Shown here one piece after another: positions 17,248 through 42,253 of a stretch of DNA of 54,188 bases. Under the pieces are notes generated by a model. That model was not told the origin of the DNA, searched no databases, and saw nothing but the letters and a program-made list of their open reading frames with translations. The number at the start of each line of letters is the position of its first letter. Positions within the stretch are counted from its first letter, which is position 1. This DNA comes from Burkholderiales bacterium (GTDB taxonomy: Bacteria > Pseudomonadota > Gammaproteobacteria > Burkholderiales > Burkholderiaceae_C), in NCBI GenBank assembly GCA_028868875.1, contig JAGWTS010000002.1:1-54188 (forward strand). The letters are read 5' to 3'. The position numbers and the translations under genes were made by a program.

Positions 17248-17290
17248 GTTCGCGAGCACACAGACTGCAGGCGAACCACAGGTCGAGAAT
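17248..17290 (+). promoter_or_regulatory. Crp/Fnr-type palindrome site Q with promoter
   Basis: GTTCG-CGAG-CACAC (17248-17261) is followed by AGAC and, at +37 from its left end, the -10-like GAGAAT (17285-17290). That places the palindrome centre at -42.5. The predicted start of transcription near 17297 is 29 bases before the lipoprotein start codon. It is a variant copy of the island motif. Confidence 0.5.
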
Positions 17291-17325
17291 GAAATGACAG
17301 TTACCACTCTAAAGGAGTGAAAGTC

Positions 17326-17544
17326 ATGAGCCGAATCCAATCCAAACTGATCCTGCTGGCCGGCATCGGCGCCGCCCTGGTCATGGCAGGCTGCGCCGAC
17401 ATGAACCGAAGCGATCGTGCAACGGCAACCGGCGCGGCCGTGGGCGGCGTGGCGGGAGCCATTCTCACCGACGGCAGTCCGGTCGGCGCCGTGGCCGGAG
17501 CCGTCGTCGGCGGTGTCGCCGGCAAGGAACTCCAGAAGCGCTGA
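17326..17544 (+). CDS. Small glycine-zipper lipoprotein
   Basis: The 72-residue protein begins MSRIQSKLILLAGIGAALVMAGC, a signal peptide with lipobox MAGC, followed by a glycine-zipper segment (GAAVGGVAGAILTDGSPVGAVAGAVVGGVAG). These are surface or outer-membrane lipoproteins of the OsmB/YMGG type, often stress-induced. AAGGAG eight bases before ATG 17326 decides that start over the GTG at 17317. An island palindrome lies upstream. Confidence 0.85.
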   Translation: MSRIQSKLILLAGIGAALVMAGCADMNRSDRATATGAAVGGVAGAILTDGSPVGAVAGAVVGGVAGKELQKR

Positions 17545-17608
17545 GGACCGAAGGGGCCGGCGGCCCCGCGCGAGGCGGCCGGCCTTGGGCTCATGGCTTC
17601 ACAAGCTC

Positions 17609-17735
17609 TCAGTTCAGGTGCATCGCCCCCGCGCCGAGCAGGCCCACGAGGCCGATGATGACGAGGTACAGGGCGACGATGTATTTGAGCCGCCGGGGCA
17701 TGGCCAAAGTGAGGATGCCTGCCAGGAGGCCGGTC
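17609..17735 (-). pseudogene. Truncated DUF3096-type small membrane protein
   Basis: Minus-strand reading gives LLAGILTLAMPRRLKYIVALYLVIIGLVGLL ending at TGA 17609-17611; split, this is LLAGILTLAMPRRL then KYIVALYLVIIGLVGLL. This corresponds to the body of DUF3096 proteins, but an in-frame TGA lies just upstream and no normal start with a ribosome site is present. A 30-residue product from ATG 17701 is possible. The N-terminal part has been lost or frameshifted. Confidence 0.55.
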
Positions 17736-17751
17736 CTTCATGGCCCGCTGG

Positions 17752-17793
17752 GTTCGCTGGCGAACAGACAGGTTCCCGACCGCGCCGCATCGT
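17752..17793 (+). promoter_or_regulatory. Crp/Fnr-type palindrome site A with promoter
   Basis: GTTCG-CTGG-CGAAC (17752-17765) is followed by AGAC and the hexamer CATCGT (17788-17793) at the -41.5 spacing. Transcription would start near 17800, 66 bases before the next gene. Confidence 0.5.
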
Positions 17794-17865
17794 GGGCCAC
17801 GACGCGCAGCCTGCGCGAGCGGTGCATGACCCCAGGAGCGTGATCCATGATTACTTGAGAGCGAC

Positions 17866-18147
17866 GTGCTCTGGGTGGAAGTGAACCCGCGCGCGGATCA
17901 CGTCGTCAACGTGCGCGTGCTCGCGCCCGTGGCCGACGTGGTGGATGCCCTGCACGACGGGGCTCGGGTGGTGGGTCTCTTCGCGCCGGGTCAGGGGGCG
18001 GTCTCCAGGGGCGACTTCCAGCTCGTCGGGCACGAAGACGGGCGCGAGTCGATCGGCTTCGACGCGCAGGCGCTGCAAGGCTGCGGGCTGCTGGACATGG
18101 TCGAACTCGACGCCGCGATGCCGAGCGCGGGCCGCGGGCGAATCTGA
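17866..18147 (+). CDS. Hypothetical protein, 93 residues
   Basis: The frame from GTG 17866 has almost uniformly G/C third positions (VNPRADHVVNVRVLAPV, then DGARVVGLFAPGQGAVSRG), arguing that it is coding rather than the overlapping minus frame. There is no signal peptide or transmembrane segment. I do not recognise the family. It follows island palindrome A and precedes a membrane hydroxylase-type gene. Confidence 0.55.
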   Translation: MLWVEVNPRADHVVNVRVLAPVADVVDALHDGARVVGLFAPGQGAVSRGDFQLVGHEDGRESIGFDAQALQGCGLLDMVELDAAMPSAGRGRI

Positions 18148-18215: not shown

Positions 18216-18258
18216 GTTCGATGGCGCACAGACAGGGCTTGCGCGTGACGCCTATGCT
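18216..18258 (+). promoter_or_regulatory. Crp/Fnr-type palindrome site B with promoter
   Basis: GTTCG-ATGG-CGCAC (18216-18229), then AGAC, then -10 TATGCT (18253-18258), one base further than the modal spacing (centre -42.5). Predicted start near 18265, 22 bases before ATG 18287. Confidence 0.65.
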
Positions 18259-18286: not shown

Positions 18287-18865
18287 ATGGGTTTTTTCAC
18301 TCTCGAACACAGCAAGGTCGTTTACTGGATGGATTTCGTCGTCTACGGCGGCGCCATCCTCGCCCTCGCGCTCTGGCTCGTCGCGGACGCGCCGCGCGAG
18401 CGCTGGCCGGTCCTGGCCGCCTGCGTGGCGGCGGGGCTTGCCTTGTGGACGCTGATCGAATACCTGCTGCACCGCTTCGTGCTGCATGGCGTGCAGCCCT
18501 TTCGCGGCTGGCACGCCGAGCATCACCGGCGCCCGGCGGCCTTGATCGGGCTGCCGACCTACATGAGCAGCGTTCTATTCGCGACGCTGGTGCTGGCACC
18601 GGCTTGGTGGATAGGCGGCGGCTGGTTCGCCCGCAGCCTGACCCTGGGCGTTCTGGCCGGCTACCTCGCCTTCGCGGTCATGCATCACGCCAGCCATCAT
18701 GTTCGCGCGGGTCCGGCGTGGCTGATCCGGCGCAAGCGCTGGCACGCGCTGCACCACGGCAGCACCGATCGCCCGCTCGGGTTCGGCGTGACGAGCGCCT
18801 TCTGGGATCACGTCTTCCGCAGTGGCGTGTCTGTCACGGCGGCCGACCGCAAAGGCCGACCCTGA
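18287..18865 (+). CDS. Fatty acid hydroxylase / sterol desaturase superfamily membrane protein
   Basis: The 192-residue protein has four hydrophobic helices and a full set of histidine boxes: HRFVLHG, HAEHH, HHASHH and HALHHGS. It resembles the short FA-hydroxylase group (fatty acid 2-hydroxylase/carotenoid hydroxylase fold), acting on membrane lipids with a di-iron centre. ATG 18287 has AGGG six bases upstream; an in-frame ATG at 18254 lies in the promoter. The preceding promoter carries the island palindrome, so stress control is likely. It is not closely related to the other hydroxylase-type gene at 8.4-9.3 kb. Confidence 0.82.
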   Translation: MGFFTLEHSKVVYWMDFVVYGGAILALALWLVADAPRERWPVLAACVAAGLALWTLIEYLLHRFVLHGVQPFRGWHAEHHRRPAALIGLPTYMSSVLFATLVLAPAWWIGGGWFARSLTLGVLAGYLAFAVMHHASHHVRAGPAWLIRRKRWHALHHGSTDRPLGFGVTSAFWDHVFRSGVSVTAADRKGRP

Positions 18866-18883
18866 CGCTCGGCGACATCGAAC

Positions 18884-20485: not shown

Positions 20486-20773
20486 CTAGGCGGCCGGCCT
20501 TGCGGCGACATCGGGGTCGCGCAGCATGACCGGCTCGATCGAGCCGCCCGCCACGCGGCGCTGCACCGCGGCCTCGATCTCGGCGGCATGGGCCTGGTAG
20601 GTCTGCAGCGGATCGTCGTCCGCGCGCTGGGGTTCGTAGCGGTAATGCAGGGTATGGCGGCCGATGCTGGCCCCCACCTCCTGGCCCTCGACCCGAACCC
20701 AGAAGCGAACCGAGTCCGAAGGCTCGTGAAAGAAGGCGACGGGCAGGTCGTGTTCGGCATTGGAATTGGGCAT
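20486..20773 (-). CDS. DUF1488-like small protein (copy 1)
   Basis: The 95-residue protein contains FFHEPSDSVRFWVRVEGQEV and GASIGRHTLHYRYEP, and then QTYQAHAAEIEAAVQRRV. It is clearly paralogous to the protein at 39742-40044. The layout matches DUF1488-like proteins, whose function is unknown. No Shine-Dalgarno precedes the ATG. The palindrome site C on its upstream side has AGAC on this strand, and the modal spacing would place the transcript start at 20774, adjacent to the ATG, consistent with leaderless translation. Confidence 0.75.
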   Translation of the reverse strand: MPNSNAEHDLPVAFFHEPSDSVRFWVRVEGQEVGASIGRHTLHYRYEPQRADDDPLQTYQAHAAEIEAAVQRRVAGGSIEPVMLRDPDVAARPAA

Positions 20774-20780: not shown

Positions 20781-20850
20781 GTTTGAAGCCGCTGCGCGCG
20801 CAGCGTCTGTGCGTTGGCGCACCGATTGCTTCCGGCGACGGGCCTACGCT
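20781..20850. promoter_or_regulatory. Crp/Fnr-type palindrome site C between divergent genes
   Basis: Exact GTGCG-TTGG-CGCAC at 20809-20822. Rightward, -10 TACGCT (20845-20850) sits exactly at the -41.5 spacing, serving the DUF3309 gene. Leftward, AGAC flanks the palindrome and the same spacing reaches TCAAAC (20786-20781), ending at the start codon of the DUF1488-like gene. A bidirectional class II site is plausible. Confidence 0.7.
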
Positions 20851-20924: not shown

Positions 20925-21083
20925 ATGACCCTCGGTACCATTCTCTTGATCGTTCTCGTGCTCATGCTGGTCGGCGCCTTCCCGAGCTGGCCACACAGCC
21001 GAAGCTGGGGTTACATGCCCAGCAGCGGGCTCGGGATCCTGGTGCTGGTCGTCGTCGTGCTCCTGCTGCTCGGGCGACTGTGA
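20925..21083 (+). CDS. DUF3309-family small membrane protein
   Basis: The 52-residue protein has two hydrophobic segments (TILLIVLVLMLVGAFP; LGILVLVVVVLLLLGRL) separated by the conserved WPHSRSWGYMPSSG, the hallmark of DUF3309. GGAG precedes ATG 20925 by seven bases. The upstream region has an island palindrome with a good -10 and a leader hairpin. The function is unknown; the family often sits among stress genes. Confidence 0.85.
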   Translation: MTLGTILLIVLVLMLVGAFPSWPHSRSWGYMPSSGLGILVLVVVVLLLLGRL

Positions 21084-21269: not shown

Positions 21270-21635
21270 TCAGCGCATCAGGCGCGCGATCAGGGTCCCG
21301 AAAGCCACCGCGGCCAGCAGGGCGGTCAGAGGATTGCGGCGCACGGTGCAGCGCAGGTCATCTGCCCACTCGTCGCGCGCGCGGCGCATTTGGTCGACCT
21401 TGACCTGCACGGCCTGATTCGCACTGGCCACCGTGGCGTCGAGTTGCTCGAGTTGCGGTGCCGCGCTCGCGGCCATCCTGTCGATGCCTTCGTGGGCTCC
21501 CTGGGCTGCGCGCCGCATCAGGTCGCTGGCCAGCGGGGGCGGCGCTCGCGCCGGCAGCGGCGCGGCGGTGGCGTCCAGCGGTGCGCTGTCCGAGTCTCCC
21601 GTGCGCGGTGCAAGCGATTCGGTGGCTGGGGTCAT
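21270..21635 (-). CDS. DUF883/ElaB/YqjD-like membrane-anchored protein
   Basis: The 121-residue protein has a long amphipathic helical region (QLEQLDATVASANQAVQVKVDQMRR) followed by CTVRRNPLTALLAAVAFGTLIARLMR. The C-terminal RxNPLxALxxAxxxGxLxxxL anchor is characteristic of ElaB/YqjD/DUF883 proteins that tether ribosomes or other partners to the inner membrane in stationary phase. AAGGAG precedes the ATG. Only a degenerate trace of the island palindrome is upstream. Confidence 0.78.
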   Translation of the reverse strand: MTPATESLAPRTGDSDSAPLDATAAPLPARAPPPLASDLMRRAAQGAHEGIDRMAASAAPQLEQLDATVASANQAVQVKVDQMRRARDEWADDLRCTVRRNPLTALLAAVAFGTLIARLMR

Positions 21636-21853
21636 GCGGCTTCTCCTTCGATGGAAATGCGCTCGCCGCGGCTTCCTGTCCGCGGTGGGCCGGATTGATC
21701 AACGGGTGACCGTGCAGTCTCGGCGCCCGCCCGGCGGGCGTCGGTGCGATACCCCACCAAGCCGGAAGCGACTGCGGGCGTGAACGGGAAGCCCGGCTCA
21801 CAGATCGCGGACGCCGGCGCACGAAGCGGTCGAGCGATTGAGGGGCTGAGGGG

Positions 21854-23900: not shown

Positions 23901-24083
23901 TCACTTGCGGCTGGCTTCCTTCACGGCTTGCGTGATGTCGCCGACGACCTTCTGGGCCTGGCCCTCGATCTGCTTGTTGATGCCTGCGACCTGCTGGGTT
24001 TTGCTCCCGACCACCTGGCCGGCCTTTTCCTGAACCTTGCCGGCTGCGTCTTTGATCGTGCCCTTGACTTGATCCTTGTTCAT
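23901..24083 (-). CDS. CsbD-family stress protein
   Basis: The 60-residue hydrophilic protein MNKDQVKGTIKDAAGKVQEK... matches CsbD: MNxDxxxGxxKxxxGKxxExxG. CsbD proteins accumulate in general stress and stationary phase; the biochemical role is unknown. An 81-92% G/C third position and ATG 24083 with GGAAC nearby support coding. The promoter with palindrome D lies about 100 bases upstream. Confidence 0.88.
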   Translation of the reverse strand: MNKDQVKGTIKDAAGKVQEKAGQVVGSKTQQVAGINKQIEGQAQKVVGDITQAVKEASRK

Positions 24084-24185: not shown

Positions 24186-24228
24186 ACCATAGTTCGCTTC
24201 CCTGTCCCGAGTCTGTGCGACAACGAAC
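24186..24228 (-). promoter_or_regulatory. Crp/Fnr-type palindrome site D with promoter (CsbD gene)
   Basis: Plus-strand GTGCG-ACAA-CGAAC at 24215-24228. Read leftward, AGAC follows and TATGGT (24191-24186) lies at centre -42.5. The transcript would start near 24179, about 95 bases before the CsbD start codon. Confidence 0.65.
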
Positions 24229-24430
24229 GCTACGGCGGCAGCACGCCCGCGCCGCCTGCTTGTTCCGCAGGATCCGGTTGCGCCGGTTGCGGCCGAGGTC
24301 GCGCGCAGAAGACGCTCTGGCGTCCGATGCGTGCGAAAGCGCACCGACCGGCGACCGTGAAACGCGCACCGTGTCGATAGACGTGGCGGCCATCGAAGCC
24401 GCAGCAACTGAGTTCAATCAGACCCACAGA

Positions 24431-24715
24431 ATGGATGATTCTCTGCGTCGGAGATGGCGCCGTCTCGTTTTCGGCGCCCAGCGTGGTGAGTACGTGAATC
24501 ACTCGACAAATGCAAGTTCCTGCGCCACTCATTACGAATTGCGCTACACGAATCTGTTCAACGCGGGTCGCGGATATGTCTTTCCGTGCGACGCCACAGG
24601 GCATGTCGACATCGCCGGTCTCAGCGACCGATGCCGCGACAACTACCTGTATGCCCGCGTTGTCGTGGGCCATGAACTGTCGCTGCCGACCGTCGTGCTT
24701 GCCTGCCCGCACTGA
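24431..24715 (+). CDS. Hypothetical protein
   Basis: A 94-residue frame from ATG 24431 includes HYELRYTNLFNAGRGYVF, then LSDRCRDNYLYARVVVGHELSLP, which looks like a genuine conserved protein, although I cannot name the family. Third-position G/C is lower than in its neighbours (codons such as TCT, GTT, AAT), hinting at foreign origin or relaxed selection. The start is uncertain; GTG 24371 is an in-frame alternative. No ribosome site is evident. The preceding 24084-24430 holds only palindrome D and no other gene. Confidence 0.5.
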   Translation: MDDSLRRRWRRLVFGAQRGEYVNHSTNASSCATHYELRYTNLFNAGRGYVFPCDATGHVDIAGLSDRCRDNYLYARVVVGHELSLPTVVLACPH

Positions 24716-24722: not shown

Positions 24723-25289
24723 TCAGCGCTCGATCCGGCTGATCTTGGTGCCTTCGATGCTCAGGCTGGCCATCAGGCCTTGCTGGTCGGTGACGAAGGC
24801 GTAGGCATCGTCCTTCAGCGTGGAGGTCGTGAGGTTCCTGGCGATGCCCTCGTTGACCACCACCACCGTCGGTCCGACGCCGAATTCCCAGCCTTTGGAT
24901 TTGGCGAGGTAATTCACGGCCTTGTCGCTCATGAGGAAGACGACATAGGCGTACGACTCGGCCCCGGCCTGCCAGCCCCAGGAAGCGGATACGGTGTTGT
25001 AGTAATCGGTGACGCGTGCGCCCTTCATGAGCACGCCCTCGCCGTAGCTGCCGCCGAACACCAGCCCGGCCTTGACGACCTTCGGAAAGACCAGGATGGC
25101 GCGGGCCCTGTGGGAGATCACCTCCGCGGTCGAATTCGCCTTGTACAGCGTCTGCAGCGCCTGCGCGGCGTCGCGGTCGAGATCCTCGGCCGTGGCCGCC
25201 TGCGCCGAGGCCTGGAGGCCCAGGGCCAGCGTGAATGCCGCCGCCGTTGCCAGCGCCAGTTTGTGGATGCCGCGTCTACTTTCGTTCAT
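24723..25289 (-). CDS. YSC84-related lipid-binding periplasmic protein
   Basis: The 188-residue protein has a Sec signal (LALATAAAFTLALGLQASAQA) and the YSC84/Ysc84-actin-binding-like domain: ISHRARAILVFPKVVKAGLVFGG, GEGVLMKGARVTDYYNTVSASWGWQAGA and DAYAFVTDQQGLMA. Bacterial members are periplasmic lipid-associated proteins. The start is ATG 25289. Upstream, palindrome P with a textbook -10 gives a leader of about 31 bases. Confidence 0.87.
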   Translation of the reverse strand: MNESRRGIHKLALATAAAFTLALGLQASAQAATAEDLDRDAAQALQTLYKANSTAEVISHRARAILVFPKVVKAGLVFGGSYGEGVLMKGARVTDYYNTVSASWGWQAGAESYAYVVFLMSDKAVNYLAKSKGWEFGVGPTVVVVNEGIARNLTTSTLKDDAYAFVTDQQGLMASLSIEGTKISRIER

Positions 25290-25326: not shown

Positions 25327-25368
25327 AGCTTAGGCAGGCCGCCTGATGCCGACGGTGCGCCAGCGCAC
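25327..25368 (-). promoter_or_regulatory. Crp/Fnr-type palindrome site P with promoter (YSC84 gene)
   Basis: Exact GTGCG-CCAG-CGCAC at 25355-25368. Read leftward, the 20-base spacer is followed by CC and TAAGCT (25332-25327), exactly the -41.5 geometry. The AGAC extension is absent here, so it is not required for the core pattern. Confidence 0.72.
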
Positions 25369-25447: not shown

Positions 25448-26254
25448 TCAGACTCGCGGTTCGCCCTGGCGGTTGACGGTGACGGTGGCGCCGGGTTCGT
25501 GGGTCATCTGAACGTGGTGTTCCTGGCCGCGGAAGGTGTAGGTCACGTCCCAGTAGGCGGGCGCAACGGGGCCGGCCACGTCGGCGCAGCGCTGCACGTC
25601 GCGGCTGCCTTCGCGATCTCTCTCGCGGCCGACGTTGGCGCCGAGCGCGGCGCCGCCGACCGCCCCGCCCACGGTGGCGACGCTGCGCCCCGTCCCGCCG
25701 CCGACCTGGTGGCCCAGGATGCCGCCGATTACGGCGCCGACGATGGCGCCCGGTACATTGGGCTGGCCGCGATCGTCGGTGGCCTGATCGCGTTCGACCC
25801 AGCAACGTCGCTGCGGCGTGGCGACCACGGCGTGCACCGTCAGGACATCGGCCTCGTACAGGCGCTCGTTGTCGCGGCGGCGGTCATCCTGGTCGACCAC
25901 CGGCATCGGGCCGTAGCGCTCGTCCTCGACGCGGGCGCCGGCGGCGACGCGGCGCACCGAAGAGACGCGGTCGTTCAGGCCCATCGCCGACAGGGACGCG
26001 TAGCTGCCCGGGCGCAGCACCACGCAGCGTCCGCCGTAGTTTGCGTCGGAGCAGATTTCCCAGCGGTCGCTCGTGACCACGGCCGACGACGCGCGGTCGT
26101 TGAACCCGTTGTCCGCGAGGTCGGCCAGCGCGCGTTCGGTGCTCAGGCTGAGGCCGCTGAACCCGTCGTTCTCGTAAAGCGTGACCTGGGCCGATGCGGG
26201 GCCCGCAAAGGCCAGCGCGGCGATCAGCAGCGTGGCGGGGGTGAATGACTTCAT
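25448..26254 (-). CDS. Beta/gamma-crystallin plus glycine-zipper (17 kDa antigen-like) exported protein
   Basis: The 268-residue protein has a signal peptide (cleavage near ASAQ), then a beta/gamma-crystallin motif pair (VTLYENDGFSGLSLS; YGGRCVVLRPGSYASLSAMGLNDRVSSVR). A glycine-zipper 2TM segment follows (GAIVGAVIGGILGHQVGGG) and a C-terminal domain with YWDVTYTFRGQEHHVQM. This combination is common in Burkholderiales outer-membrane or periplasmic stress proteins. Calcium or envelope binding is inferred only. It is divergent from the AI-2E-type gene across palindrome E. Confidence 0.82.
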   Translation of the reverse strand: MKSFTPATLLIAALAFAGPASAQVTLYENDGFSGLSLSTERALADLADNGFNDRASSAVVTSDRWEICSDANYGGRCVVLRPGSYASLSAMGLNDRVSSVRRVAAGARVEDERYGPMPVVDQDDRRRDNERLYEADVLTVHAVVATPQRRCWVERDQATDDRGQPNVPGAIVGAVIGGILGHQVGGGTGRSVATVGGAVGGAALGANVGRERDREGSRDVQRCADVAGPVAPAYWDVTYTFRGQEHHVQMTHEPGATVTVNRQGEPRV

Positions 26255-26306: not shown

Positions 26307-26377
26307 AATGTGGGCCGACGCGCCGGCACGGGTCTGTGCGACAACGCACCGATGTGATGGCGCCAGGCGTCCAGGCT
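26307..26377. promoter_or_regulatory. Crp/Fnr-type palindrome site E between divergent genes
   Basis: Exact GTGCG-ACAA-CGCAC at 26336-26349, with AGAC on the left (minus-strand) side. Leftward the hexamer CACATT (26312-26307, centre -42.5) and rightward CAGGCT (26372-26377, centre -41.5) are available; both are weak but keep A2 and T6. It could serve the crystallin-like gene, the AI-2E-type gene, or both. Confidence 0.6.
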
Positions 26378-26419: not shown

Positions 26420-27625
26420 ATGCAAGACGAAGCCCGCATCAACGACTCCGACGTCGACTCCGACTCCGCCCCTGAAGCGGCCGCCTGCGCGGCGCCCGCC
26501 CCGGTGCCCCTGGTGCCTTTGCACATGCCGCGCAGGCCGGTCGACGTGCGCAACGGCTCGGTCGCGCTCATCGCGCTGCTGGCTTCGGCCTACACCCTGC
26601 ACTGGGCCAGCGCGGTGTTCATCCCCTTGCTGCTGGGCGTGCTGTTCAGCTACGCGCTTTCCCCGCTGGTGGACGGCCTGCAGCGCTGGCGCGTGCCGCG
26701 CGCGCTCGGCGCCGGGTGCCTGTTGCTGTCCGTCCTGGGGGGCATCGGATTCACCGGCTATTCGCTGCTCGACGATGCCGCGGCGCTGATCGAATCGCTG
26801 CCTGCCGCAGCGCAGAAGCTGCGCGATTCGCTGCGTGCGCTGCCGGGGGCCCCCGAGGGCACCATCGGCAAGGTGCAGCGGGCGGCGGCGAAGCTCGAGC
26901 AGGCGGCCGAAGAGAGCGGGTCGGCGACGCCCGCGGCCGGCCGCGGGGTCACGCGGGTGCAGATCGAGCGCCGGCACTTCGACATCAAGGACTACCTGTG
27001 GAGCGGCACGCTCGGGTTGGCCGGCTTCGTCGGCCAGGCGACGATCGTCGGCTTCATCGCCTTCTTCCTCATGGCTTCGGGCGACAGCTTCCGGCGCAAG
27101 ATGGCGCGCATTGCCGGGCCGACCTTCAGCCGCAGGAAGATCACGATCCAGGCGCTCGACCAGATCACCGGGCAGATCCGGCGCTACCTGCTCGTGCAGG
27201 TCTTCACCGGGGTCGGGGTCGGTGCCGCCACCTGGCTCGCCTTTCGCTGGATCGGGCTCGAACACGCGGCCGTCTGGGGCGTCGCGGCGGCGGTGCTCAA
27301 CTTCGTGCCCTATCTCGGCGCGCTCGCGGTCAGCGGCGGCGCGGCGCTGGTCGGGTTTCTCCAGTTCGGCACGCTGGGGCAGGCGCTGACGGCCGGCTTC
27401 GCCTCGCTGGCCATCCATACGCTGTCGGGCCATCTCGTCGCGCCCTGGCTGACCAGCCGCGCCAGCCGCATGAACCCGGTCGCGATCTTCGTCGGCGTGC
27501 TGGCCTGGGGCTGGCTCTGGGGCGTCTGGGGCCTGCTGCTGGGGGCGCCGCTGCTGATGGTGATTAAGGCCGTGTGCGATCGCGTGGACGAGTGGTTGCC
27601 GGTGGGCGAGTTGCTCGGCGAGTAG
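26420..27625 (+). CDS. AI-2E/PerM-family transporter
   Basis: The 401-residue membrane protein has the AI-2E family architecture: two N-terminal helices, a long cytosolic or periplasmic insert, then GFIAFFLMASGDSFRRKMARI, ITGQIRRYLLVQVFTGVGVG, and the conserved VPYLGALAVSGGAALVGF and NPVAIFVGVLAWGWLWGVWGLLLGAPL. Family members include autoinducer-2 exporters and Na+/H+ antiporters; the substrate here cannot be named. ATG 26420 lies about 23 bases after the start predicted from palindrome E. It has a hydrophilic Asp-rich N-terminus. Confidence 0.87.
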   Translation: MQDEARINDSDVDSDSAPEAAACAAPAPVPLVPLHMPRRPVDVRNGSVALIALLASAYTLHWASAVFIPLLLGVLFSYALSPLVDGLQRWRVPRALGAGCLLLSVLGGIGFTGYSLLDDAAALIESLPAAAQKLRDSLRALPGAPEGTIGKVQRAAAKLEQAAEESGSATPAAGRGVTRVQIERRHFDIKDYLWSGTLGLAGFVGQATIVGFIAFFLMASGDSFRRKMARIAGPTFSRRKITIQALDQITGQIRRYLLVQVFTGVGVGAATWLAFRWIGLEHAAVWGVAAAVLNFVPYLGALAVSGGAALVGFLQFGTLGQALTAGFASLAIHTLSGHLVAPWLTSRASRMNPVAIFVGVLAWGWLWGVWGLLLGAPLLMVIKAVCDRVDEWLPVGELLGE

Positions 27626-33021: not shown

Positions 33022-33852
33022 ATGAGTCCCGGCAGCCGCGCGACCGATCCCGCCCGTGCAAGCCCGGGCGCGCAGGATCTTGCGGCCGATGAGTGGGACC
33101 GTCGCTTCGACGCCGTGATGGTCCGCCTCGAGCAATCGGCCGCCGCCATGCCGGACCGGGGTGCGGCCGCCCCCGGCGTGGTTCAGGACTGCGTGCAGGC
33201 GTTGCGCCGGCTGCAAGCCAGCCTCGTGCACGGGCGCCGCCTGCACCTGGCCAGCGGGCGCGAGCTGCTCGAGACGCGCGCCGCGCTGGCCAGCGCCCGT
33301 CTCGAACTGGCGGGAACCCGGGCGGGCGAGCGCCGGGCGCGGCACCAGGCCCAGCACGACGAGCTCACCTCGCTGCCCAATCGCGGCTACTTCCGCGACC
33401 GGCTGGAGGATGCGTTGAACCCGGCCGACCGGCGTGCACCGGCCCTGGCCGTGCTGTTCCTCGATCTCGACGGCTTCAAGCCCATCAACGACCGCCACGG
33501 CCACGAGACGGGTGACGAACTGCTGCGCGTGGTGGCCCGGCGCCTGAGCGGATCGATCCGCGCCGGGGACATGGTCTGCCGCCTGGGTGGCGACGAGTTC
33601 GCCTGCATGCTGGCCGAACGGATGGACCGCGAGGAACTCGGCCACGTGGCCTCCAAGCTCTTCGACGCCGTGTCGGCTCCGCTCACGGTGGGCCCGCTGC
33701 AGTTCAACGTGCGCCCGAGCATCGGCATCGCCGTCTGCCCCGGCGACGGCGACACGGCCGCCGGGCTGCTCAAGCGGGCCGATGCCGCGATGTACCGCGC
33801 CAAGCGCAGGCAGATGGGCTACGCCTTCTTCGACCACCGCAGCGACGTCTGA
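33022..33852 (+). CDS. Diguanylate cyclase (GGDEF)
   Basis: The 276-residue cytoplasmic protein has an N-terminal helical region and a C-terminal GGDEF domain (about 105-275): DELTSLPNRGYF, FLDLDGFKPINDRHGHETGD, and active-site RLGGDEF (about 187). The inhibitory I-site RAGD lies five residues before GGDEF, as in PleD. It should make c-di-GMP from GTP with product inhibition. No transmembrane or PAS domain is present; input must come through the N-terminal helices. GGGAG precedes ATG 33022 by ten bases. It sits between a Crp/Fnr gene and a histidine-kinase operon. Confidence 0.9.
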   Translation: MSPGSRATDPARASPGAQDLAADEWDRRFDAVMVRLEQSAAAMPDRGAAAPGVVQDCVQALRRLQASLVHGRRLHLASGRELLETRAALASARLELAGTRAGERRARHQAQHDELTSLPNRGYFRDRLEDALNPADRRAPALAVLFLDLDGFKPINDRHGHETGDELLRVVARRLSGSIRAGDMVCRLGGDEFACMLAERMDREELGHVASKLFDAVSAPLTVGPLQFNVRPSIGIAVCPGDGDTAAGLLKRADAAMYRAKRRQMGYAFFDHRSDV

Positions 33853-33927: not shown

Positions 33928-33969
33928 GTGCGTCAGCGCACAGACGGGCGCCGTGCGTCCTGTCATCTT
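33928..33969 (+). promoter_or_regulatory. Crp/Fnr-type palindrome site K with promoter (kinase operon)
   Basis: Exact GTGCG-TCAG-CGCAC at 33928-33941, AGAC, and -10-like CATCTT (33964-33969) at the exact -41.5 spacing. Transcript start near 33976, 69 bases before the kinase start codon. It would place the kinase, REC-PAS and second Crp/Fnr genes under the island regulon. Confidence 0.68.
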
Positions 33970-34044: not shown

Positions 34045-35805
34045 ATGACCCGAGCTGGAAATGGCGCCTTCGCCTACGCCCCTGCAAGCCCCGCGGCGGA
34101 CGTCGTCGAAGTGCAGCGCCAGAAGGCGCTGATCAAGGCCGGAGCCCTGCAGAAGGCCATTCTCGAGAGCGCCAACTTCTCGAGCATCGCGACCGACGAG
34201 CGCGGCGTCATCCAGCTGTTCAACGTCGGCGCCGAGCGCATGCTCGGCTACCAGGCCGGCGACGTGATCAACCGCATCACGCCGGCGGACATCTCCGACC
34301 CGGCGGAGGTGGTGGCGCGGGCGCAGGCGCTCAGCATCGAGCTGGCCACGCCGATCACGCCGGGCTTCGAGGCGCTGGTGTTCAAGGCCTCGCGCGGCAT
34401 CGAGGACGTCTACGAGCTGACCTACATCCGCAAGGACGGCAGCCGACTCCCGGCCATCGTCTCGGTGACGGCCCTGCAGGACGCCGCCGACGCGATCATC
34501 GGCTACCTGCTGATCGGCACCGACAACACCGCGCGCAAGCTGGTCGAGGCCGAGCGCAGCCGCCTGGACCAGGTGCTCAAGCGCAGCCTGCGCGAACTCG
34601 AGAACGCCAAGGTGGCGGCCGAGCAGGCCAACCTGGCCAAGTCGGACTTCCTCTCCAGCATGAGCCACGAGCTGCGCTCGCCGCTCAACGCCATCCTCGG
34701 CTTCGCCCAGCTGATGGAGACCGGCGCGCCATCGCCCACGCCGGGCCAGAAGGACAGCATCGACCAGATCCTGCAGGCCGGCTGGTACCTGCTCGAGCTG
34801 ATCAACGAGATCCTCGACCTCGCGCTGATCGAGTCGGGCCGGCTTTCGCTGTCGCCCGAGCCGATGTCGCTGGCCGAGGTGCTGGGCGACTGCCAGGCGA
34901 TGATCGAGCCCCAGGCGCAAAAGAGCGGCATCCGGGTCGGCTTCCCGGATTTCGAGGACCCCTGGCTCGTCAAGGCCGACCGCACGCGGGTCAAGCAGGT
35001 GCTGATCAACCTGCTGTCCAACGCCATCAAGTACAACCGCGTCGGCGGCCGGGTGGACGTGCGCTGCGCGGCCGTGGCGCCCGGCCGGGTGAGGGTCAGC
35101 TTCCAGGACACCGGCGAAGGACTCTCCGAGAACAAGCTGGCGCAGCTGTTCCAGCCCTTCAACCGGCTCGGCCAGGAGGGCGGCGCGCAAGAGGGCACCG
35201 GCATCGGCCTGGTGGTCAGCAAGCGCCTGGTCGAGTTGATGGGGGGCGCCATCGGCGCCGAGAGCACGGTCGGCGTGGGCAGCCTGTTCTGGGTCGAGCT
35301 GGCTTCGACGGCGGCCCTGCAGCCCGTGGCCGCCGCGGCGGGGGTCTCGCCCGCTGCGCCCGCGCCGGCGCCTGCCGACACGCCGCAGCGCAGCCTGCTG
35401 TACGTCGAGGACAACCCGGCCAACCTGATGCTCGTCGAGCGCCTGCTCGCGCGCCGCAGCGACCTGCGCATGCTCAGCGCCCGCGACGGCCGCAGCGGCA
35501 TCGAGCTCGCCCGCCTGCACCAGCCCGACGTCATCCTGATGGACATCAACCTGCCGGGCATCAACGGCCTGACGGCGCTGCGCATCCTGACCGAGGACGG
35601 TCGCACCGCCGGCATCCCGGTGATCGCGCTCAGCGCGAACGCGATGCCGCGCGACATCGAGCGCGGCCTGCAGGCGGGATTCTTCCGCTACCTGACCAAG
35701 CCGATCAAGGTCGCCGAATTCATGGTCACGCTGGACGCGGCGCTCGTCCATGCGGCCGGGGCCGCCGATGGCGCCGCCCGCCAGCCCGAGGTCGTGCAGC
35801 CATGA
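34045..35805 (+). CDS. Cytoplasmic PAS hybrid histidine kinase with C-terminal receiver
   Basis: The 586-residue protein lacks transmembrane segments. Domains: PAS (about 45-170), HisKA with phospho-acceptor in MSHELRSPLN (about 206), HATPase_c (N box NLLSNAIKYN about 322; DTGEGLSENK; GTGIGLVVSK), and a receiver (about 450-575) with the phosphorylatable Asp in ILMDINLPG and TKPIK Lys. A soluble PAS kinase implies an intracellular redox, light or ligand signal. ATG 34045 follows palindrome K. The next gene starts inside its stop codon (ATGA), so the receiver protein downstream is co-expressed. Partner output is probably the REC-PAS protein or Crp/Fnr neighbours. Confidence 0.9.
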   Translation: MTRAGNGAFAYAPASPAADVVEVQRQKALIKAGALQKAILESANFSSIATDERGVIQLFNVGAERMLGYQAGDVINRITPADISDPAEVVARAQALSIELATPITPGFEALVFKASRGIEDVYELTYIRKDGSRLPAIVSVTALQDAADAIIGYLLIGTDNTARKLVEAERSRLDQVLKRSLRELENAKVAAEQANLAKSDFLSSMSHELRSPLNAILGFAQLMETGAPSPTPGQKDSIDQILQAGWYLLELINEILDLALIESGRLSLSPEPMSLAEVLGDCQAMIEPQAQKSGIRVGFPDFEDPWLVKADRTRVKQVLINLLSNAIKYNRVGGRVDVRCAAVAPGRVRVSFQDTGEGLSENKLAQLFQPFNRLGQEGGAQEGTGIGLVVSKRLVELMGGAIGAESTVGVGSLFWVELASTAALQPVAAAAGVSPAAPAPAPADTPQRSLLYVEDNPANLMLVERLLARRSDLRMLSARDGRSGIELARLHQPDVILMDINLPGINGLTALRILTEDGRTAGIPVIALSANAMPRDIERGLQAGFFRYLTKPIKVAEFMVTLDAALVHAAGAADGAARQPEVVQP

Positions 35806-36644
35806 AGCCCGGCGAACTGGACATCCTGGGCGCGCGCATCCTGATCGTCGACGACCAGAGCGCCAACGTGCGGCTGCTCGAGCGGCTGCTCAGCGACGCC
35901 GGCTACACCCGCGTGAGCTCGACGATGGATCCGCTGGAGGTCTGCGCGCTGCACCGCCGGCATGCCTTCGACCTCATCCTGCTCGACCTGCAGATGCCCG
36001 GCATGGACGGCTTCCAGGTGATGAACGGGCTCAAGACCAACGTCGACGACAGTTACCTGCCCGTGGTCGTGCTCACGGCCCAGCCCGGCCACAAGCTGCG
36101 CGCGCTGCAGGCGGGGGCGAAGGACTTCATCAGCAAGCCCTTCGATCTGGTCGAGGCCAGGACGCGCATCCACAACATGCTCGAGGTGCGGCTGCTGTAC
36201 CGCAAGCTCGAGGAACAGAACCAGCGGCTGGAGCAGCTGGTGCGCGAGCGCACGGCCGAGTTGCGAGAGAGCGAAGCCCGCTACCGCAGCCTGACCGAGC
36301 TGGCCTCGGACTGGTACTGGGAGCAGGACGAGAGCGGCAGCTTCACCAAGGTCTCGGGCCCGGTGATGGAGATGCTGGGGATCCGGGTCGACACGCTGGC
36401 GGGCACGGCCGGCGACGATTCGGCCAGCGGCTGGGACCCGCTCGAGCGCGAGACGCTGCGCGCCGCCATCGCGGCGCGCCAGCCGTTCCTGGACTTCCTC
36501 ATAAGCCGCACCGGCATCGACGGCGTGCGCGAACACTTCCGGGTCAGCGGCGAACCCATGTTCACCCAGTCGTGCCGCTTCGTGGGCTACCGCGGCGTCG
36601 GGGTGGAGGTCACCGCACCCGAGTCAGCGCCATGTCCGGCATGA
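35802..36644 (+). CDS. Response regulator with REC, coiled coil and PAS domain
   Basis: The 280-residue protein has an N-terminal receiver (ILIVDDQSANVRLLERLL; Asp in LILLDLQMPG; ISKPFD), a coiled coil (LYRKLEEQNQRLEQLVRERTAEL) and a C-terminal PAS domain (RYRSLTELASDWYWEQDESG to GYRGVGVEVT). There is no HTH, GGDEF or other output domain, so it must signal through protein contacts. ATGA overlaps both the kinase gene before and the Crp/Fnr gene after it, giving a translationally coupled trio. It may carry the phosphoryl group from the hybrid kinase toward the regulator. Confidence 0.85.
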   Translation: MKPGELDILGARILIVDDQSANVRLLERLLSDAGYTRVSSTMDPLEVCALHRRHAFDLILLDLQMPGMDGFQVMNGLKTNVDDSYLPVVVLTAQPGHKLRALQAGAKDFISKPFDLVEARTRIHNMLEVRLLYRKLEEQNQRLEQLVRERTAELRESEARYRSLTELASDWYWEQDESGSFTKVSGPVMEMLGIRVDTLAGTAGDDSASGWDPLERETLRAAIAARQPFLDFLISRTGIDGVREHFRVSGEPMFTQSCRFVGYRGVGVEVTAPESAPCPA

Positions 36645-37411
36645 ACAGGATGAGTCCGGCGATTTCGAGGCCCGCGCCGGATCCGCGCCAGAACCGGCTG
36701 CTCGCGGCACTGCCGCCGGCGGAGTTCGCGCCCCTGGCCGGGCACCTGCAGTGCGTGGCACTGCCTCTGGGCGAGATGCTCTACGAGCCGGGCCAGCAAC
36801 TGCAGCATGCCTACTTTCCAACCACCGCCGTGGTCTCGCTGCACTACGTCACCGAGTCCGGCGCATCGGCCGAGACGGCTGGAGTGGGCAACGAGGGCGT
36901 GGTCGGCATCTCGCTTTTCATGGGCGGGGATACGACGCCCAGCTCGGCCATGGTGCAGGCGGCTGGGCATGCCTGGCGCCTCGACCGCCACCGCCTGAAA
37001 CAGGCATTCGATGCCGGCGGGCTGTTGCAGCGCCTGCTGCTGCGCTACACGCAGGCGCTGCTGACGCAGATGTCGCAGACCGCGGCCTGCAACCGGCACC
37101 ACTCGGTGGAGCAGCAACTCAGCCGCTGGCTGCTGCTTGCCCTGGACCGCGCGCCCGAGCGCGAACTCGTGATCACCCAGGAACTGGTGGCGAACATGCT
37201 GGGCGTGCGCCGCGAGAGCGTCACCGAGGCCGCGGGCACGCTGCAGAAGATCGGCTGCATCCGCTACCGCCGGGGCCACATCGCGGTCGTCGACCGGGTC
37301 GGTCTCCAGACGCGGTCGTGCGAATGCTACGCCGTGGTCAAGAAGGAAATGGACCGGCTGCTCTCGGACTCGACGTGCGCACCGGAGCCCGAACTGGTCG
37401 GCTTCATCTGA
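36641..37411 (+). CDS. Crp/Fnr-family transcriptional regulator (second)
   Basis: The 256-residue protein has a cNMP-binding-type beta-roll (HAYFPTTAVVSLHYVTESGAS; VGNEGVVGISLFMGG) and a C-terminal winged helix with recognition helix MLGVRRESVTEAAGTLQK. The R-E-S-V-T segment keeps the Arg and Glu that read G and C in the CRP half-site. FNR-type iron-sulfur cysteines are absent at the N-terminus. ATG 36641 overlaps the previous stop (ATGA); ATG 36632 is an alternative. Co-transcription with a PAS kinase and REC-PAS protein suggests it belongs to the same signalling chain. It is the best candidate to bind the island palindromes. Confidence 0.87.
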   Translation: MNRMSPAISRPAPDPRQNRLLAALPPAEFAPLAGHLQCVALPLGEMLYEPGQQLQHAYFPTTAVVSLHYVTESGASAETAGVGNEGVVGISLFMGGDTTPSSAMVQAAGHAWRLDRHRLKQAFDAGGLLQRLLLRYTQALLTQMSQTAACNRHHSVEQQLSRWLLLALDRAPERELVITQELVANMLGVRRESVTEAAGTLQKIGCIRYRRGHIAVVDRVGLQTRSCECYAVVKKEMDRLLSDSTCAPEPELVGFI

Positions 37412-39378: not shown

Positions 39379-39579
39379 CTACTTCCGGTCGATCTGGATA
39401 TTTTCCTTGGACCCGCTGTTCGCGACCGAGATCATGAGTCCAACGCCCAGCAGTATGACAACGCCAATGACGATCCAAGCCGTGTCAATGCGTTGCAATA
39501 GTCCCAGCTTCCAGAGTGCACCCAGAATTCCGCCAATCAGGATCGCGAATCCGAGGAAATACATTCCTGCCCACTTCAT
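39379..39579 (-). CDS. Small two-helix membrane protein
   Basis: The 66-residue protein has two hydrophobic helices (YFLGFAILIGGILGALWKLG; AWIVIGVVILLGVGLMISV) and a short charged tail. AGGAG precedes ATG 39579 by six to seven bases. Palindrome L with -10 TAGCGT gives a predicted 32-base leader. It is unrelated by sequence to the DUF3309 protein but similar in size and context: a small stress-island membrane protein of unknown function. Confidence 0.8.
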   Translation of the reverse strand: MKWAGMYFLGFAILIGGILGALWKLGLLQRIDTAWIVIGVVILLGVGLMISVANSGSKENIQIDRK

Positions 39580-39617: not shown

Positions 39618-39659
39618 ACGCTATGCTTCAATGCCCGTGCAGTCTGTGCGCTGCCGCAC
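39618..39659 (-). promoter_or_regulatory. Crp/Fnr-type palindrome site L with promoter
   Basis: Exact GTGCG-CTGC-CGCAC at 39646-39659; read leftward, AGAC, 20-base spacer and -10 TAGCGT (39623-39618) at the exact -41.5 geometry. It drives the two-helix membrane protein; predicted start near 39611. Confidence 0.72.
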
Positions 39660-39694: not shown

Positions 39695-39736
39695 GTGGGT
39701 CAGCGTACAGACACCCTTCTCGAATCGGGCCAGCCT
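39695..39736 (+). promoter_or_regulatory. Crp/Fnr-type palindrome site M (DUF1488-like copy 2)
   Basis: GTGGG-TCAG-CGTAC (39695-39708), AGAC, and CAGCCT (39731-39736) at the modal spacing. The predicted start falls at 39743, on the ATG at 39742, so the message would be leaderless, as predicted for the paralogue at 20773. Confidence 0.5.
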
Positions 39737-39741: not shown

Positions 39742-40044
39742 ATGATCAGCAAACCGATCGATGTCGACACTCCGCAAGCGTTCTTCCACGAACCCTCTGG
39801 AACCGTTCGCTTCTGGGTGCTCGTGAAAGATCGATATGTAGGCGCCAGTATCGGGAAAAAGACCCTGCACTATCGCTACGAGCCTTCGCGCTTCGACGAC
39901 GACGCGTTGGCAACCTACCATGCGAACTCATCGGAGATCGATGCGGCGGTGTTGCGCCACTTGGCGGGTGGGTCCGGTTCACCGGTTCTGCTGCATGATC
40001 TGGACGTCCTGCACAAGCGCCCTCGGTTGATTGCCGGCCGCTGA
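39742..40044 (+). CDS. DUF1488-like small protein (copy 2)
   Basis: The 100-residue protein shares FFHEPSGTVRFWVLVKDRYV and GASIGKKTLHYRYEP with the protein at 20486-20773, so they are paralogues, both next to island palindromes. There is no ribosome site before ATG 39742, in line with a leaderless transcript. Function unknown. Confidence 0.75.
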   Translation: MISKPIDVDTPQAFFHEPSGTVRFWVLVKDRYVGASIGKKTLHYRYEPSRFDDDALATYHANSSEIDAAVLRHLAGGSGSPVLLHDLDVLHKRPRLIAGR

Positions 40045-40187
40045 TTGGACTCGCGAACCGCGGCCGATGGCGCGCACGGCAGCCGGTTGCCGTGCGGTGC
40101 GCGAAGGTTCCTCGGACCGCGGGGCCGGTCGTGCAAGGTCGCCCGTTCAAACGGGTCGGGCACGCAAGTCGAACCATGCACGGCTCA

Positions 40188-40229
40188 GTCTGTCGGCGCA
40201 CAGACGAATTTGCAAAAGATCGCCATAAA
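40188..40229 (+). promoter_or_regulatory. Crp/Fnr-type palindrome site N, half-degenerate
   Basis: The right half CGCAC (40197-40201) with AGAC is intact, while the left half is GTCTG (40188-40192). The AT-rich CATAAA (40224-40229) occupies the -10 spacing. Predicted start near 40236, 24 bases before ATG 40260. Confidence 0.45.
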
Positions 40230-40259
40230 CGCAACAAGCGCCTCTCGTGGGTGCTTGTG

Positions 40260-40637
40260 ATGGCGGAGTCCCCTCATGGCTTGGCCTCGGCCGTCACTCG
40301 CACAAGGGGGCGGTGGAGTTCTCGGGAGATCTCCTTGTTCACATTCCGTGCTTCCCATACTTTCAGCGAAAGCGCCTGGATCAATGCGTTTGCCGTGCAT
40401 GTTCTCCGTCTGCAATCAGAGATGCATATCGCGGAGGCAGTGGCCCTCGGCTGCGATGCGTGGAAGACATCCTTTGCCGCAGAGCCCGCCGCGGTCGCTG
40501 GGCAATTCGGCAAAGAAGGCTGCGAAGACATGCCCTCTCGGTGGCTCGGCCCCGAGTGCGGCGTACAGGAGACTCATGGGCGAGTTCAATCGCCCGGGGC
40601 CGAGGGTTGCATTCCGAAGGATCATCATGTTGCGTAA
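40260..40637 (+). CDS. Hypothetical protein, 125 residues
   Basis: A frame from ATG 40260 contains HTFSESAWINAFAVHVLRLQ and EMHIAEAVALGCDAWKTSF, a helical pattern (INAFAxHVLxLxxxMxIxEAVxLG) seen in small uncharacterised Burkholderiales proteins; the C-terminal third is less convincing. It overlaps the start of the next gene by 11 bases. Palindrome N is upstream. Confidence 0.5.
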   Translation: MAESPHGLASAVTRTRGRWSSREISLFTFRASHTFSESAWINAFAVHVLRLQSEMHIAEAVALGCDAWKTSFAAEPAAVAGQFGKEGCEDMPSRWLGPECGVQETHGRVQSPGAEGCIPKDHHVA

Positions 40638-40890
40638 AGCCAGGAATAATTTGCTCGATGGTGCAGCCGATTCTGCGCATGTCGCGCTCGAAGCCACGCA
40701 GCACGCGCTGACTGCGGCGCGCGACGGTTCGCTGCGGATATTGGCGCGCGTCAGCCGCACATCGGGCAGGGCGGCCGCGCACATCGGGGACAATCCCGTT
40801 TGGTCGGCGCTCACTGCGGCCGCCGCCGGCGCTGCGCTGGTCGCGGTGCTGACCCTGCTGACGCGGTGGCGCTCTCGACAAGGCAAATGA
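40627..40890 (+). CDS. DUF883/YqjD-like membrane-anchored small protein
   Basis: The 87-residue protein has a helical N-terminal part (NLLDGAADSAHVALEATQHAL), then AHIGDNPVWSALTAAAAGAAL and a C-terminal transmembrane helix ending RWRSRQGK. It resembles the ElaB/YqjD class. AAGGA precedes ATG 40627 by seven bases. Its stop overlaps the ATG of the metal-transporter-like gene (ATGA), so the two are coupled. Confidence 0.7.
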   Translation: MLRKARNNLLDGAADSAHVALEATQHALTAARDGSLRILARVSRTSGRAAAHIGDNPVWSALTAAAAGAALVAVLTLLTRWRSRQGK

Positions 40891-42203
40891 GGTCACCCGG
40901 CAACGAACGCAAGGCACGGCCGCACGCAAGGGCATGGGCGTCGCTTTGGCAGCGCATCGAGGACAACCCGCTCGCCCACGTCGGACCGGGACTGATCACC
41001 GGCGTGGCTGACGACGACCCGAGCGGCATAGCAACCTACTCGCAGGCGGGTGCCCAATTCGGATTGAACATGCTGTGGACGATGCCACTCATGTTTCCGC
41101 TGATGGCGGCGATTCAGTCGATTTGCGCGCGCATCGGTCGCGTCACCGGCAAGGGTCTGGCCGCCAACATCAAGGCGACGTTTCCACTGATCGTGCTTCA
41201 GGGCGTCGTGCTGTTGCTGCTGGTGGCGAATACGCTGAACATCGCTGCGGACGTGGCCGCAATGGGGGAAGTCGCCGAACTCGTGAGCGGAGTCAACCGA
41301 CACCTGCTGACCGCCTTCTTCGTCCTTGCCACCTTGGCGCTGCAGATACTGGTTCCCTACCACCGCTACGTCTCGTACTTGAAATGGTTGACCCTGTCGC
41401 TGCTCGCCTACGCCGCAGTCCTGTTCACGGTGCACGTGCCATGGGGCCAGGTGGCTCTGCGCACGGTGTGGCCGCATTTCACGCTGAACTCGAAATCGGC
41501 GGCGGTGATCGTAGCCATTTTCGGCACCACCATCAGTCCTTACCTGTTCTTCTGGCAGGCCTCGGAGGAGGTCGAGGACATGCAGGCCACGACGGGTGCG
41601 AAGCCGCTGCGGACGGACGCACACGCGGCGCCTGGCGAACTTCGACGCATCCGCTGGGACACCTGGAGCGGCATGCTCTACTCGGACCTCGCGGCCTATT
41701 TCATCATCCTGGCGACTGCCGTCACGCTCAATGTCTCCGGCGTCCATGACATCAACACGGCGGCACAGGCCGCCAGTGCGTTGCGCCCGCTGGCCGGCGA
41801 ATTGGCCTATATGCTTTTCGCGGTGGGGATCCTGGGCGTCGGCATGATCGGCGTGCCCGTGCTGGCGGGCTCCGCGGCGTACGCGATGGCCGAGGCCATG
41901 GGATGGAAGTGGGGACTGGAGCGCAAGGCCGGCGATGCGCGCGGCTTCTACGGTGTCATCGCCGTGAGCGTCCTGGTCGGCCTCGGGATTCAGTATTCAC
42001 CGATCAGTCCGATGAAGGCGTTGTTCTGGAGTGCCGTCATCAATGGCGTCGTCGCTGTCCCGTTGATGGCGGTGGTGATGGTTCTGGTGTCCAAGAAGTC
42101 GGTGATGGGCGCGTTTACGGCGCCGCTCGCGATCGCAGGACTTGGTTGGATCGCCACGGCGGTCATGGGTGTCGCCGCCCTTTGCATGCTCCTGCCAGGA
42201 TAG
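40887..42203 (+). CDS. Nramp-superfamily transporter of atypical (NRMT-like) type
   Basis: The 438-residue protein has about 11 transmembrane helices and the Nramp fold pattern: GPGLITGVADDDPSGIATYSQAGAQFG in helix 1 region (ADDDPSGIATYSQ) and GTTISPYLFFWQASEE in helix 6. Classical Mn2+/Fe2+ Nramps have DPGN in helix 1 and MPH in helix 6. Here DPSG and SPY replace them, losing the metal-selecting Met, as in Nramp-related Mg2+ transporters. Transport of a hard divalent ion such as Mg2+ is inferred. The start ATG overlaps the preceding stop. Interval 42204-42448 holds only palindrome O. Confidence 0.85.
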   Translation: MRSPGNERKARPHARAWASLWQRIEDNPLAHVGPGLITGVADDDPSGIATYSQAGAQFGLNMLWTMPLMFPLMAAIQSICARIGRVTGKGLAANIKATFPLIVLQGVVLLLLVANTLNIAADVAAMGEVAELVSGVNRHLLTAFFVLATLALQILVPYHRYVSYLKWLTLSLLAYAAVLFTVHVPWGQVALRTVWPHFTLNSKSAAVIVAIFGTTISPYLFFWQASEEVEDMQATTGAKPLRTDAHAAPGELRRIRWDTWSGMLYSDLAAYFIILATAVTLNVSGVHDINTAAQAASALRPLAGELAYMLFAVGILGVGMIGVPVLAGSAAYAMAEAMGWKWGLERKAGDARGFYGVIAVSVLVGLGIQYSPISPMKALFWSAVINGVVAVPLMAVVMVLVSKKSVMGAFTAPLAIAGLGWIATAVMGVAALCMLLPG

Positions 42204-42239
42204 CGGTCGCACGCTGCGCACCTGCTCCGATCGCGATTT

Positions 42240-42253
42240 GTATGCTGGCGCAC
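42240..42253. promoter_or_regulatory. Crp/Fnr-type palindrome site O, orphan
   Basis: GTATG-CTGG-CGCAC lies between two gene ends with no gene start in the right place on either strand. It may be a relic of a lost gene. No convincing -10 is present at the modal spacing. Confidence 0.35.

Follow-up and report, generated by a model that had tools for sequence, protein, structure and literature searches.

A recurrent palindrome in a Burkholderiales stress island is a predicted class II operator of CxCY-type Crp/Fnr proteins

A palindrome that recurs through a stress island of a Burkholderiales bacterium, TGTKCG-NYRN-CGMACA, is very probably the class II operator of a Crp/Fnr activator, with the CxCY subfamily, and above all its Crp2 branch, as the most likely binder. 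The island lies in a stretch of 54,188 nucleotides (the window), which is contig C352 of a 5.7-Mb, 571-contig genome (GCA_028868875.1). An original prediction had described the pattern as GTGCG-N4-CGCAC, present at 17 places between genes of a 25-kb region and spaced like a CRP site. From the promoter geometry, the recurrence in other genera and the association with regulator genes reported here, we infer binding itself, activation over repression, the participation of sigma-70 and a dimeric protein.

On re-scan, each of the 17 places carried a matching sequence. The six copies given as exact were all exact, but two more had been overlooked, one intergenic (24331) and one inside the RR-PAS gene (36240), and the eleven variants differ from the palindrome by one or two bases rather than by one to three. 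The exact form is present in eight copies in the window, compared with a mean of 0.57 and a maximum of three in 100 shuffles. Sixteen of the 17 places are intergenic as predicted, in a region (16494–43662) with an intergenic share of 20% by the gene list made in this analysis, but the place at 29256 overlaps the 3′ end of a truncated HlyD-type reading frame. At up to two mismatches the bare palindrome is unenriched (129 in the window vs. 153 expected), so that weaker sites are credible only together with their flank and −10 element, and the case for the sites needed other grounds. Weak single sites may be of chance origin, 42240 and 40188 for example. The sequence at 42240 has a fitting hexamer, but the genes on either side of it converge and a target is lacking over 2.6 kb, and it is probably not a site. 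The palindrome observation as a whole is real.

The sites are arranged at a fixed distance from promoter-like hexamers. YANNNT occurs at offsets 22 and 23 past the 14-mer in 17 of the 34 flanks of the 17 sites (0.8 expected; background rate 0.0115), every other offset having at most two flanks, and TANNNT occurs at two adjacent offsets in 7 of the 34 flanks vs. about 0.05 expected. From the site centre to the first −10 base the distance is 29.5 or 30.5 bp. Operators of CRP class II promoters are centred at −41.5, and a centre about 29.5 bp before the −10 element has this class II spacing, with start sites inferred from the sequence. Sixteen of the 17 YANNNT flanks aim at a gene start no more than 104 nt away. 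At 15 of the 17 sites a −10-like hexamer is aimed at a gene start 6–104 nt further on, a count that includes 17248 (GAGAAT) and 29256 (AATCAT), whose hexamers are outside YANNNT; a hexamer fitting YANNNT is absent at 40188. Both flanks of 20809–20822 and 26336–26349 carry a −10 element at class II distance, and each of these operators may serve two divergent genes. Sites of the same geometry were also identified beyond the original list at 16425, 24331 and 43365, and with a weaker hexamer at 21744. The proposed CRP/FNR-type geometry is therefore supported by class II spacing to the −10 element in the window and in other genera. The reading as a CRP site holds for the spacing, but the operator is TGTKCG-NYRN-CGMACA and not a CRP site with one letter swapped.

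A sequence-only promoter model, R1, was trained on 18 oriented promoters belonging to 16 of the 17 predicted sites. These promoters were oriented using the −10 element, so R1 scores within the window are circular and the test rests on other genomes. With R1, a scan of the whole genome gave 55 matches at E ≤ 10 and 22 at E < 0.01. Nineteen of the latter are in the window, all except one belonging to the training set; two are on contig C439 and one is on contig C239. The bare exact palindrome was dropped as a genome-wide detector, being just twofold above its reversed control (37 vs. 18, with eight of the 37 in this contig). The regulon is not limited to 25 kb, since sites are present on further contigs of the genome, among them sites close to a third paralog and to a katG-like gene. 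This paralog, Crp3, is encoded on C439 (L051:7291–8010) with a one-mismatch site 64 bp upstream. Locus L051 forms a second small cluster with several sites, where translations read by eye suggest katG, a disulfide-oxidoreductase-like protein and an outer-membrane protein besides Crp3. The C239 site precedes a long protein, read by eye as a GH94-type enzyme.

The palindrome recurs in relatives. At E ≤ 0.05, R1 matched 41 of 61 genomes (our own and 60 relatives), with up to 30 matches per genome, and yielded 182 matches in 80 named loci around Crp1 from Rubrivivax, Polaromonas, Variovorax, Rhizobacter, Paucibacter, Methylibium and others, a set that partly overlaps with the relatives' loci. Linkage was compared in 20 Crp neighbourhoods (341,885 bp), one per genome, from genomes picked for having both sites and Crp genes. 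With both strands counted, R1 matched 94 times at E ≤ 0.3 there, in 19 of the 20 neighbourhoods, whereas the 20 control stretches taken from these genomes (328,467 bp) gave no match at this threshold; the genomes also bear sites outside the compared neighbourhoods.

When N6-N4-N6 palindromes were counted de novo in the 80 named loci, TGTGCG ranked first (27 vs. 0.2) and TGTTCG second (15 vs. 0.21), apart from runs of N. Two other palindromes, CTGGCT-N7-AGCCAG (37 loci) and GGCGGT-N5-ACCGCC (17 loci), were rejected as they look like conserved coding sequence of Crp1- and Crp2-type genes (14 copies of each inspected), and the de novo test was therefore redone with Crp genes and 400 bp upstream masked. 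Both half-sites kept their ranks (TGTGCG, 18 vs. 0.15; TGTTCG, 8 vs. 0.19). TANNNT stands at the class II offset in 33 of 148 flanks in the named loci, compared with about 0.6 per other offset, and the masked loci gave 39 palindromes with TANNNT at this offset 9 times vs. 0.19. The strict form TGTKCG-N4-CGMACA was found 74 times in the named loci, its three permuted half-site controls 21, 0 and 4 times. Of 155 oriented sites, 93.5% have a pyrimidine-purine step at the centre; the central two bases were unused in selection.

Behind these 155 oriented promoters we identified 136 distinct downstream proteins with a coding score above 5, and families were assigned from the first 25 of 43 Pfam families. 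They include 64 HTH_Crp_2 proteins (a count inflated by the selection of loci for Crp1), eight GGDEF proteins, six histidine kinases, five BON proteins, three fatty acid hydroxylases, three AMP-binding enzymes, three DUF4398, two DUF1003 and two DUF3309 proteins; PLDc, FMN reductase, VIT1 and ferritin occur once each. Many pairings of site and gene known from the window are thus found again in other genera.

The distribution of the sites follows that of the CxCY proteins across 300 Burkholderiales genomes. A family member was defined as a match to the Crp1 or Crp2 query at E ≤ 1e-25 and a site-positive genome as one with an R1 match at E ≤ 0.01; at most 19, nine or eight candidates were scored per genome in these surveys, so that the counts are lower bounds. 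The family was found in 101 of the 300 genomes, often in several copies, and it is present in 61 of 77 site-positive vs. 40 of 223 site-negative genomes. All 25 genomes with at least three sites encode it. With strong-match cut-offs chosen here (1e-60 for Crp1, 1e-75 for Crp2), sites occur in 36 of 37 genomes with strong Crp1 and Crp2, 16 of 37 with Crp2-type only, one of two with Crp1-type only and eight of 25 with weak matches only. Judging from these genome classes, Crp2-type proteins seem sufficient for the presence of sites. A difference between Crp1 and Crp2 genomes at half-site letter four (G/T) was considered and rejected (0.54/0.36 in 155 vs. 0.55/0.42 in 33 sites). Recurrence across the Burkholderiales, together with the association with one Crp/Fnr subfamily, agrees with the common regulon that had been proposed.

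The strongest evidence for the binder comes from the upstream regions of the regulator genes themselves. Of the 77 genes of Crp2 type in the named loci, 60 are preceded within 300 bp by a site that has one mismatch or none (shuffled sequence, 0.13%), as are nine of 20 in the relatives' loci; gene starts in these tests are match starts or script guesses. Shuffled upstream sequence reaches this level in 0.1–0.6% of cases across the Crp2-type sets. Of the 40 genomes that have the family but no model site, 19 were sampled in 20 regions, and such a site stood ahead of 6 of 23 Crp2-type genes there, four of the sites being perfect. Genome G241 has one family member, on one contig; a perfect site lies 65 bp ahead of the gene for it, and of seven further R1 matches most are far from this gene. 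In the window, Crp1 has its own operator directly and Crp2 via a kinase operon. Because the palindrome travels with and precedes a Crp/Fnr regulator gene, this regulator is the likely binder.

Several observations weigh against this assignment. One or two sites are present in 16 of the 199 family-less genomes, and 21 of the 37 genomes with Crp2-type proteins only have no R1 match. Four large genomes of family f32 (G155, G194, G291 and G321) encode a member and have zero R1 matches. Conversely, G035 (seven sites), G240 (one) and G124 (two) have no member detectable at E ≤ 1e-8. The Fisher value for co-occurrence of family and sites over the 300 genomes (4e-22) is overstated because the sequences are related and not independent. 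Upstream sites are much rarer for Crp1-type genes, with 13 of 78 in the named loci (shuffled 0.38%, random windows 4.6%) and one of 10 in the relatives' loci (random windows 6.2%), and random 300-bp windows of the site-rich loci reach at most one mismatch in 4–6% of cases for the Crp2 sets. In G034, with 11 sites, a member was found in pieces at E ≤ 1e-8. On contig C526 of this genome (L331, L334 and L336), the Crp3-type gene is present only as pieces in different frames.

It is improbable that the palindromes are class II operators of another Crp/Fnr protein, such as classical CRP, FNR or DNR, with the CxCY proteins merely as neighbours and targets. The genome offers candidates for this, having 21 PF13545 matches (13 above cut-off, including the three CxCY paralogs) and five PF00325 matches, and the three genomes with sites and no detected member would fit it as well. 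However, ordinary FNR and CRP proteins should be present in almost every member of the Burkholderiales while the sites track the CxCY family, at least three sites being found in 25 of 101 genomes with the family and in none of the 199 without it, and this weakens the alternative. The sites that still precede some Crp2-type genes in R1-negative genomes also argue against it.

That the same proteins bind their operators as repressors, or as a mixture of activators and repressors, seems quite improbable. Operators overlapping a promoter or just upstream of it can repress, and two of the sites serve divergent genes; however, repressor sites scatter more in position than activator sites, and a fixed distance from the centre to the −10 element, in place of a −35 box, suits activation. 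An origin of the GC-rich palindromes by chance or as hairpins, with the pattern as a reading bias, is hardly credible and is refuted for the site set as a whole, for although the bare palindrome is unenriched when two mismatches are allowed, its exact form is only twofold enriched genome-wide and one permuted control reached 21 vs. 74, the −10 spacing is fixed, the pyrimidine-purine centre was unselected, and de novo rank elsewhere, linkage and upstream conservation all stand against it.

The candidate binders have the architecture of the Crp/Fnr superfamily, with a cyclic nucleotide-binding-like beta roll and a Crp-type winged helix-turn-helix domain. Crp1 (31996–32703, plus strand, with a TTG start chosen by hand) and Crp2 (36632–37411, plus strand) both match PF13545 above cut-off; PF00027 matches Crp2 above cut-off but Crp1 below it. 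None of the NCBIfam models matches the three paralogs Crp1, Crp2 and Crp3. A structure model of Crp2 (predicted local distance difference test score, pLDDT, 88) matches MtbCRP, GlxR, CRP and FNR. Cys153 and His157 in helix C, Arg193-Arg194, Cys230 and Cys232 (Crp2 numbering) are invariant in 33 aligned members, and CxCY, which begins an additional C-terminal helix, is present in all 33. A script saw no CxCY in L305, L308 and L185; the L185 entry is truncated, and that of L308 is possibly read in another frame. Crp1 has the helix-C cysteine, the C-terminal CxCY and the recognition helix LGVRRVGIT, and the helix of Crp2, whose branch is the best candidate binder, reads LGVRRESVT; the residue after the second Arg is Glu in Crp2-type and Val in Crp1-type proteins, with a Ser variant in L348. 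The N-terminal cysteine cluster that holds the 4Fe-4S centre of FNR/ANR is absent in the 33 aligned members. Conservation of cysteines 153, 230 and 232 suggests redox, metal or nitric oxide sensing, and the kinase operon and the GGDEF gene may point to phosphorelay or cyclic di-GMP (c-di-GMP) input as well.

In the class II activator model favoured here, a Crp/Fnr dimer would bind the palindrome centred at about −41.5, sometimes −42.5, take the place of the −35 element and bring sigma-70 polymerase to a weak YANNNT −10 element. The Crp2 branch (Crp2 and Crp3 in this genome) would be the main binder, and its sister Crp1 probably reads the same or overlapping sites. All three Crp genes of the genome lie behind such sites, so that the loop would be self-reinforcing. 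Predicted targets are CsbD, BON, Ysc84, DUF3309, DUF1488, DUF1003, Gly-zipper, fatty acid hydroxylase, transport, GGDEF and hybrid kinase genes. It is possible, although rather unlikely, that the CxCY proteins are a general-stress master switch of the Burkholderiales, acting as self-reinforcing activators that sense stress through a novel cysteine centre built from the helix-C Cys and a C-terminal CxC. Elsewhere this role is filled by the alternative sigma factors RpoS and EcfG.

The genes behind the sites number about twenty and are of the small stress, envelope and signalling kinds named as targets in the original prediction, together with the regulators themselves. On the plus strand, an operator-like site (16425–16438; −10 CATGGT; very weak in R1, E 1.7) precedes a DUF1003 gene (16494–17099), and operators at 17248–17261, 17752–17765 (CATCGT) and 18216–18229 (TATGCT) precede a Gly-zipper gene (17326–17544), an open reading frame (ORF; 17866–18147) and a fatty acid hydroxylase gene (18287–18865) that starts 29 nt on. 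A very short minus-strand frame at 17612–17741, possibly without an intact start, resembles DUF3096-type membrane peptides. The bidirectional operator at 20809–20822 faces a DUF3309 gene (20925–21083, plus) through TACGCT and a DUF1488 gene (20486–20773, minus) through CAAACT. A possible minus-strand operator at 21744–21757 (24.0 bits, E 2e-6) has the −10-like hexamer GAGACT and an ORF (21270–21635) 81 nt on. Two more operators on the minus strand, 24215–24228 (TATGGT) and 25355–25368 (TAAGCT), precede a CsbD gene (23901–24083) and a Ysc84 gene (24723–25289), and the overlooked exact operator at 24331–24344 (plus; CACCGT) precedes an ORF (24431–24715). The second bidirectional operator, 26336–26349, faces an AI-2E-type transporter gene (26420–27625, plus) through CAGGCT and a beta/gamma crystallin/Gly-zipper gene (25448–26254, minus) through CACATT.

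Further along, plus-strand operators at 27663–27676 (TACCTT) and 29256–29269 precede a gene without a Pfam match whose product looks secreted by eye (27770–28678) and a BON gene (29334–29663). An HlyD-type membrane-fusion N-terminal fragment (28762–29337) stops where the BON operator and promoter start, and the BON promoter and gene look as if they had been inserted as a cassette into the HlyD-type frame. The operator at 31841–31854 (minus; TAGATT) precedes a phospholipase D-type gene (30120–31709), and the one at 31903–31916 (plus; CAAACT) precedes the Crp1 gene. Two other plus-strand operators precede signalling genes, 32721–32734 (CAAGCT) before a small ORF from about 32799 and a GGDEF gene (33022–33852), and 33928–33941 (CATCTT) before the overlapping genes for a hybrid kinase (34045–35805), the RR-PAS protein (35802–36644) and Crp2.

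Towards the end of the island, the operator at 39646–39659 (minus; TAGCGT, with a fitting CAGCTT also on the plus side) precedes a small membrane protein gene (39379–39579), that at 39695–39708 (plus; CAGCCT) a gene that is DUF1488-like by eye and has no Pfam family (39742–40044), and a weak operator at 40188–40201 (plus; CATAAA at the −10 place) the 40627 ORF and MntH. A possible operator at 43365–43378 (minus; TACCGT) has an FMN reductase gene (42449–43000) 337 nt on. Although outside the training set, the sites at 21744, 24331 and 43365 have R1 E values of 2e-6 to 4e-4. Beside the island, a large protein with adenylate/guanylate cyclase and AAA/NACHT domains is encoded at 43663–46824 with no listed site directly before it.

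For the CxCY family this yields a prediction of operator, promoter architecture and targets that is open to joint testing, and many orphan small stress genes (CsbD, BON, DUF3309, DUF1488 and DUF1003) receive a common predicted regulator. Among the matches listed, open-access literature yields nothing on this operator or on the protein family. The original prediction likewise knew of no published regulon with the site.

The system resembles E. coli CRP in fold, in the 16-bp palindromic span of the operator, in the TGTG start of the half-site and in a centre near −41.5. CRP contacts DNA with an Arg-Glu pair of its recognition helix, which Crp2 retains. In contrast, the CRP operator is TGTGA-N6-TCACA, and the present half-site goes on with CG where CRP has A and so is not a CRP operator; the present proteins also have the extra C-terminal helix with CxCY, and the cyclic AMP (cAMP) positions Glu72 and Arg82-Ser83 appear changed in a hand alignment to CRP. 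MtbCRP and GlxR are the best-ranked solved folds for Crp2, GlxR also being best by sequence (4cyd, E 6.6e-5), but identity is about 20–24% and those two bind cAMP. Xanthomonas Clp (3iwz) shares the Crp/Fnr fold and is c-di-GMP-responsive, and a GGDEF gene is among the present targets; B. cenocepacia Bcam1349 is presumably another c-di-GMP-responsive Crp/Fnr protein. FNR sites are of the TTGAT type, and FNR and ANR differ from the CxCY proteins, which are without the N-terminal cysteine cluster. Of two further papers (PMC6446978, PMC5343134), one gives an FNR motif and the other, in its available portion, mentions neither Crp nor Fnr. As far as the available parts of the sources describe it, the low-oxygen-activated (lxa) locus of B. 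cenocepacia differs in encoding six universal stress proteins (PMC6127331, PMC9104464) and in its suggested regulator, the ANR-like BCAM0049 with 43% similarity to Anr (PMC6127331). It is nevertheless the nearest known kind of system according to these sources, since there, too, an island of small stress genes, with BON and DUF1488 proteins among their products, is linked to Crp/Fnr regulation (PMC6127331, PMC3759415, PMC9104464).

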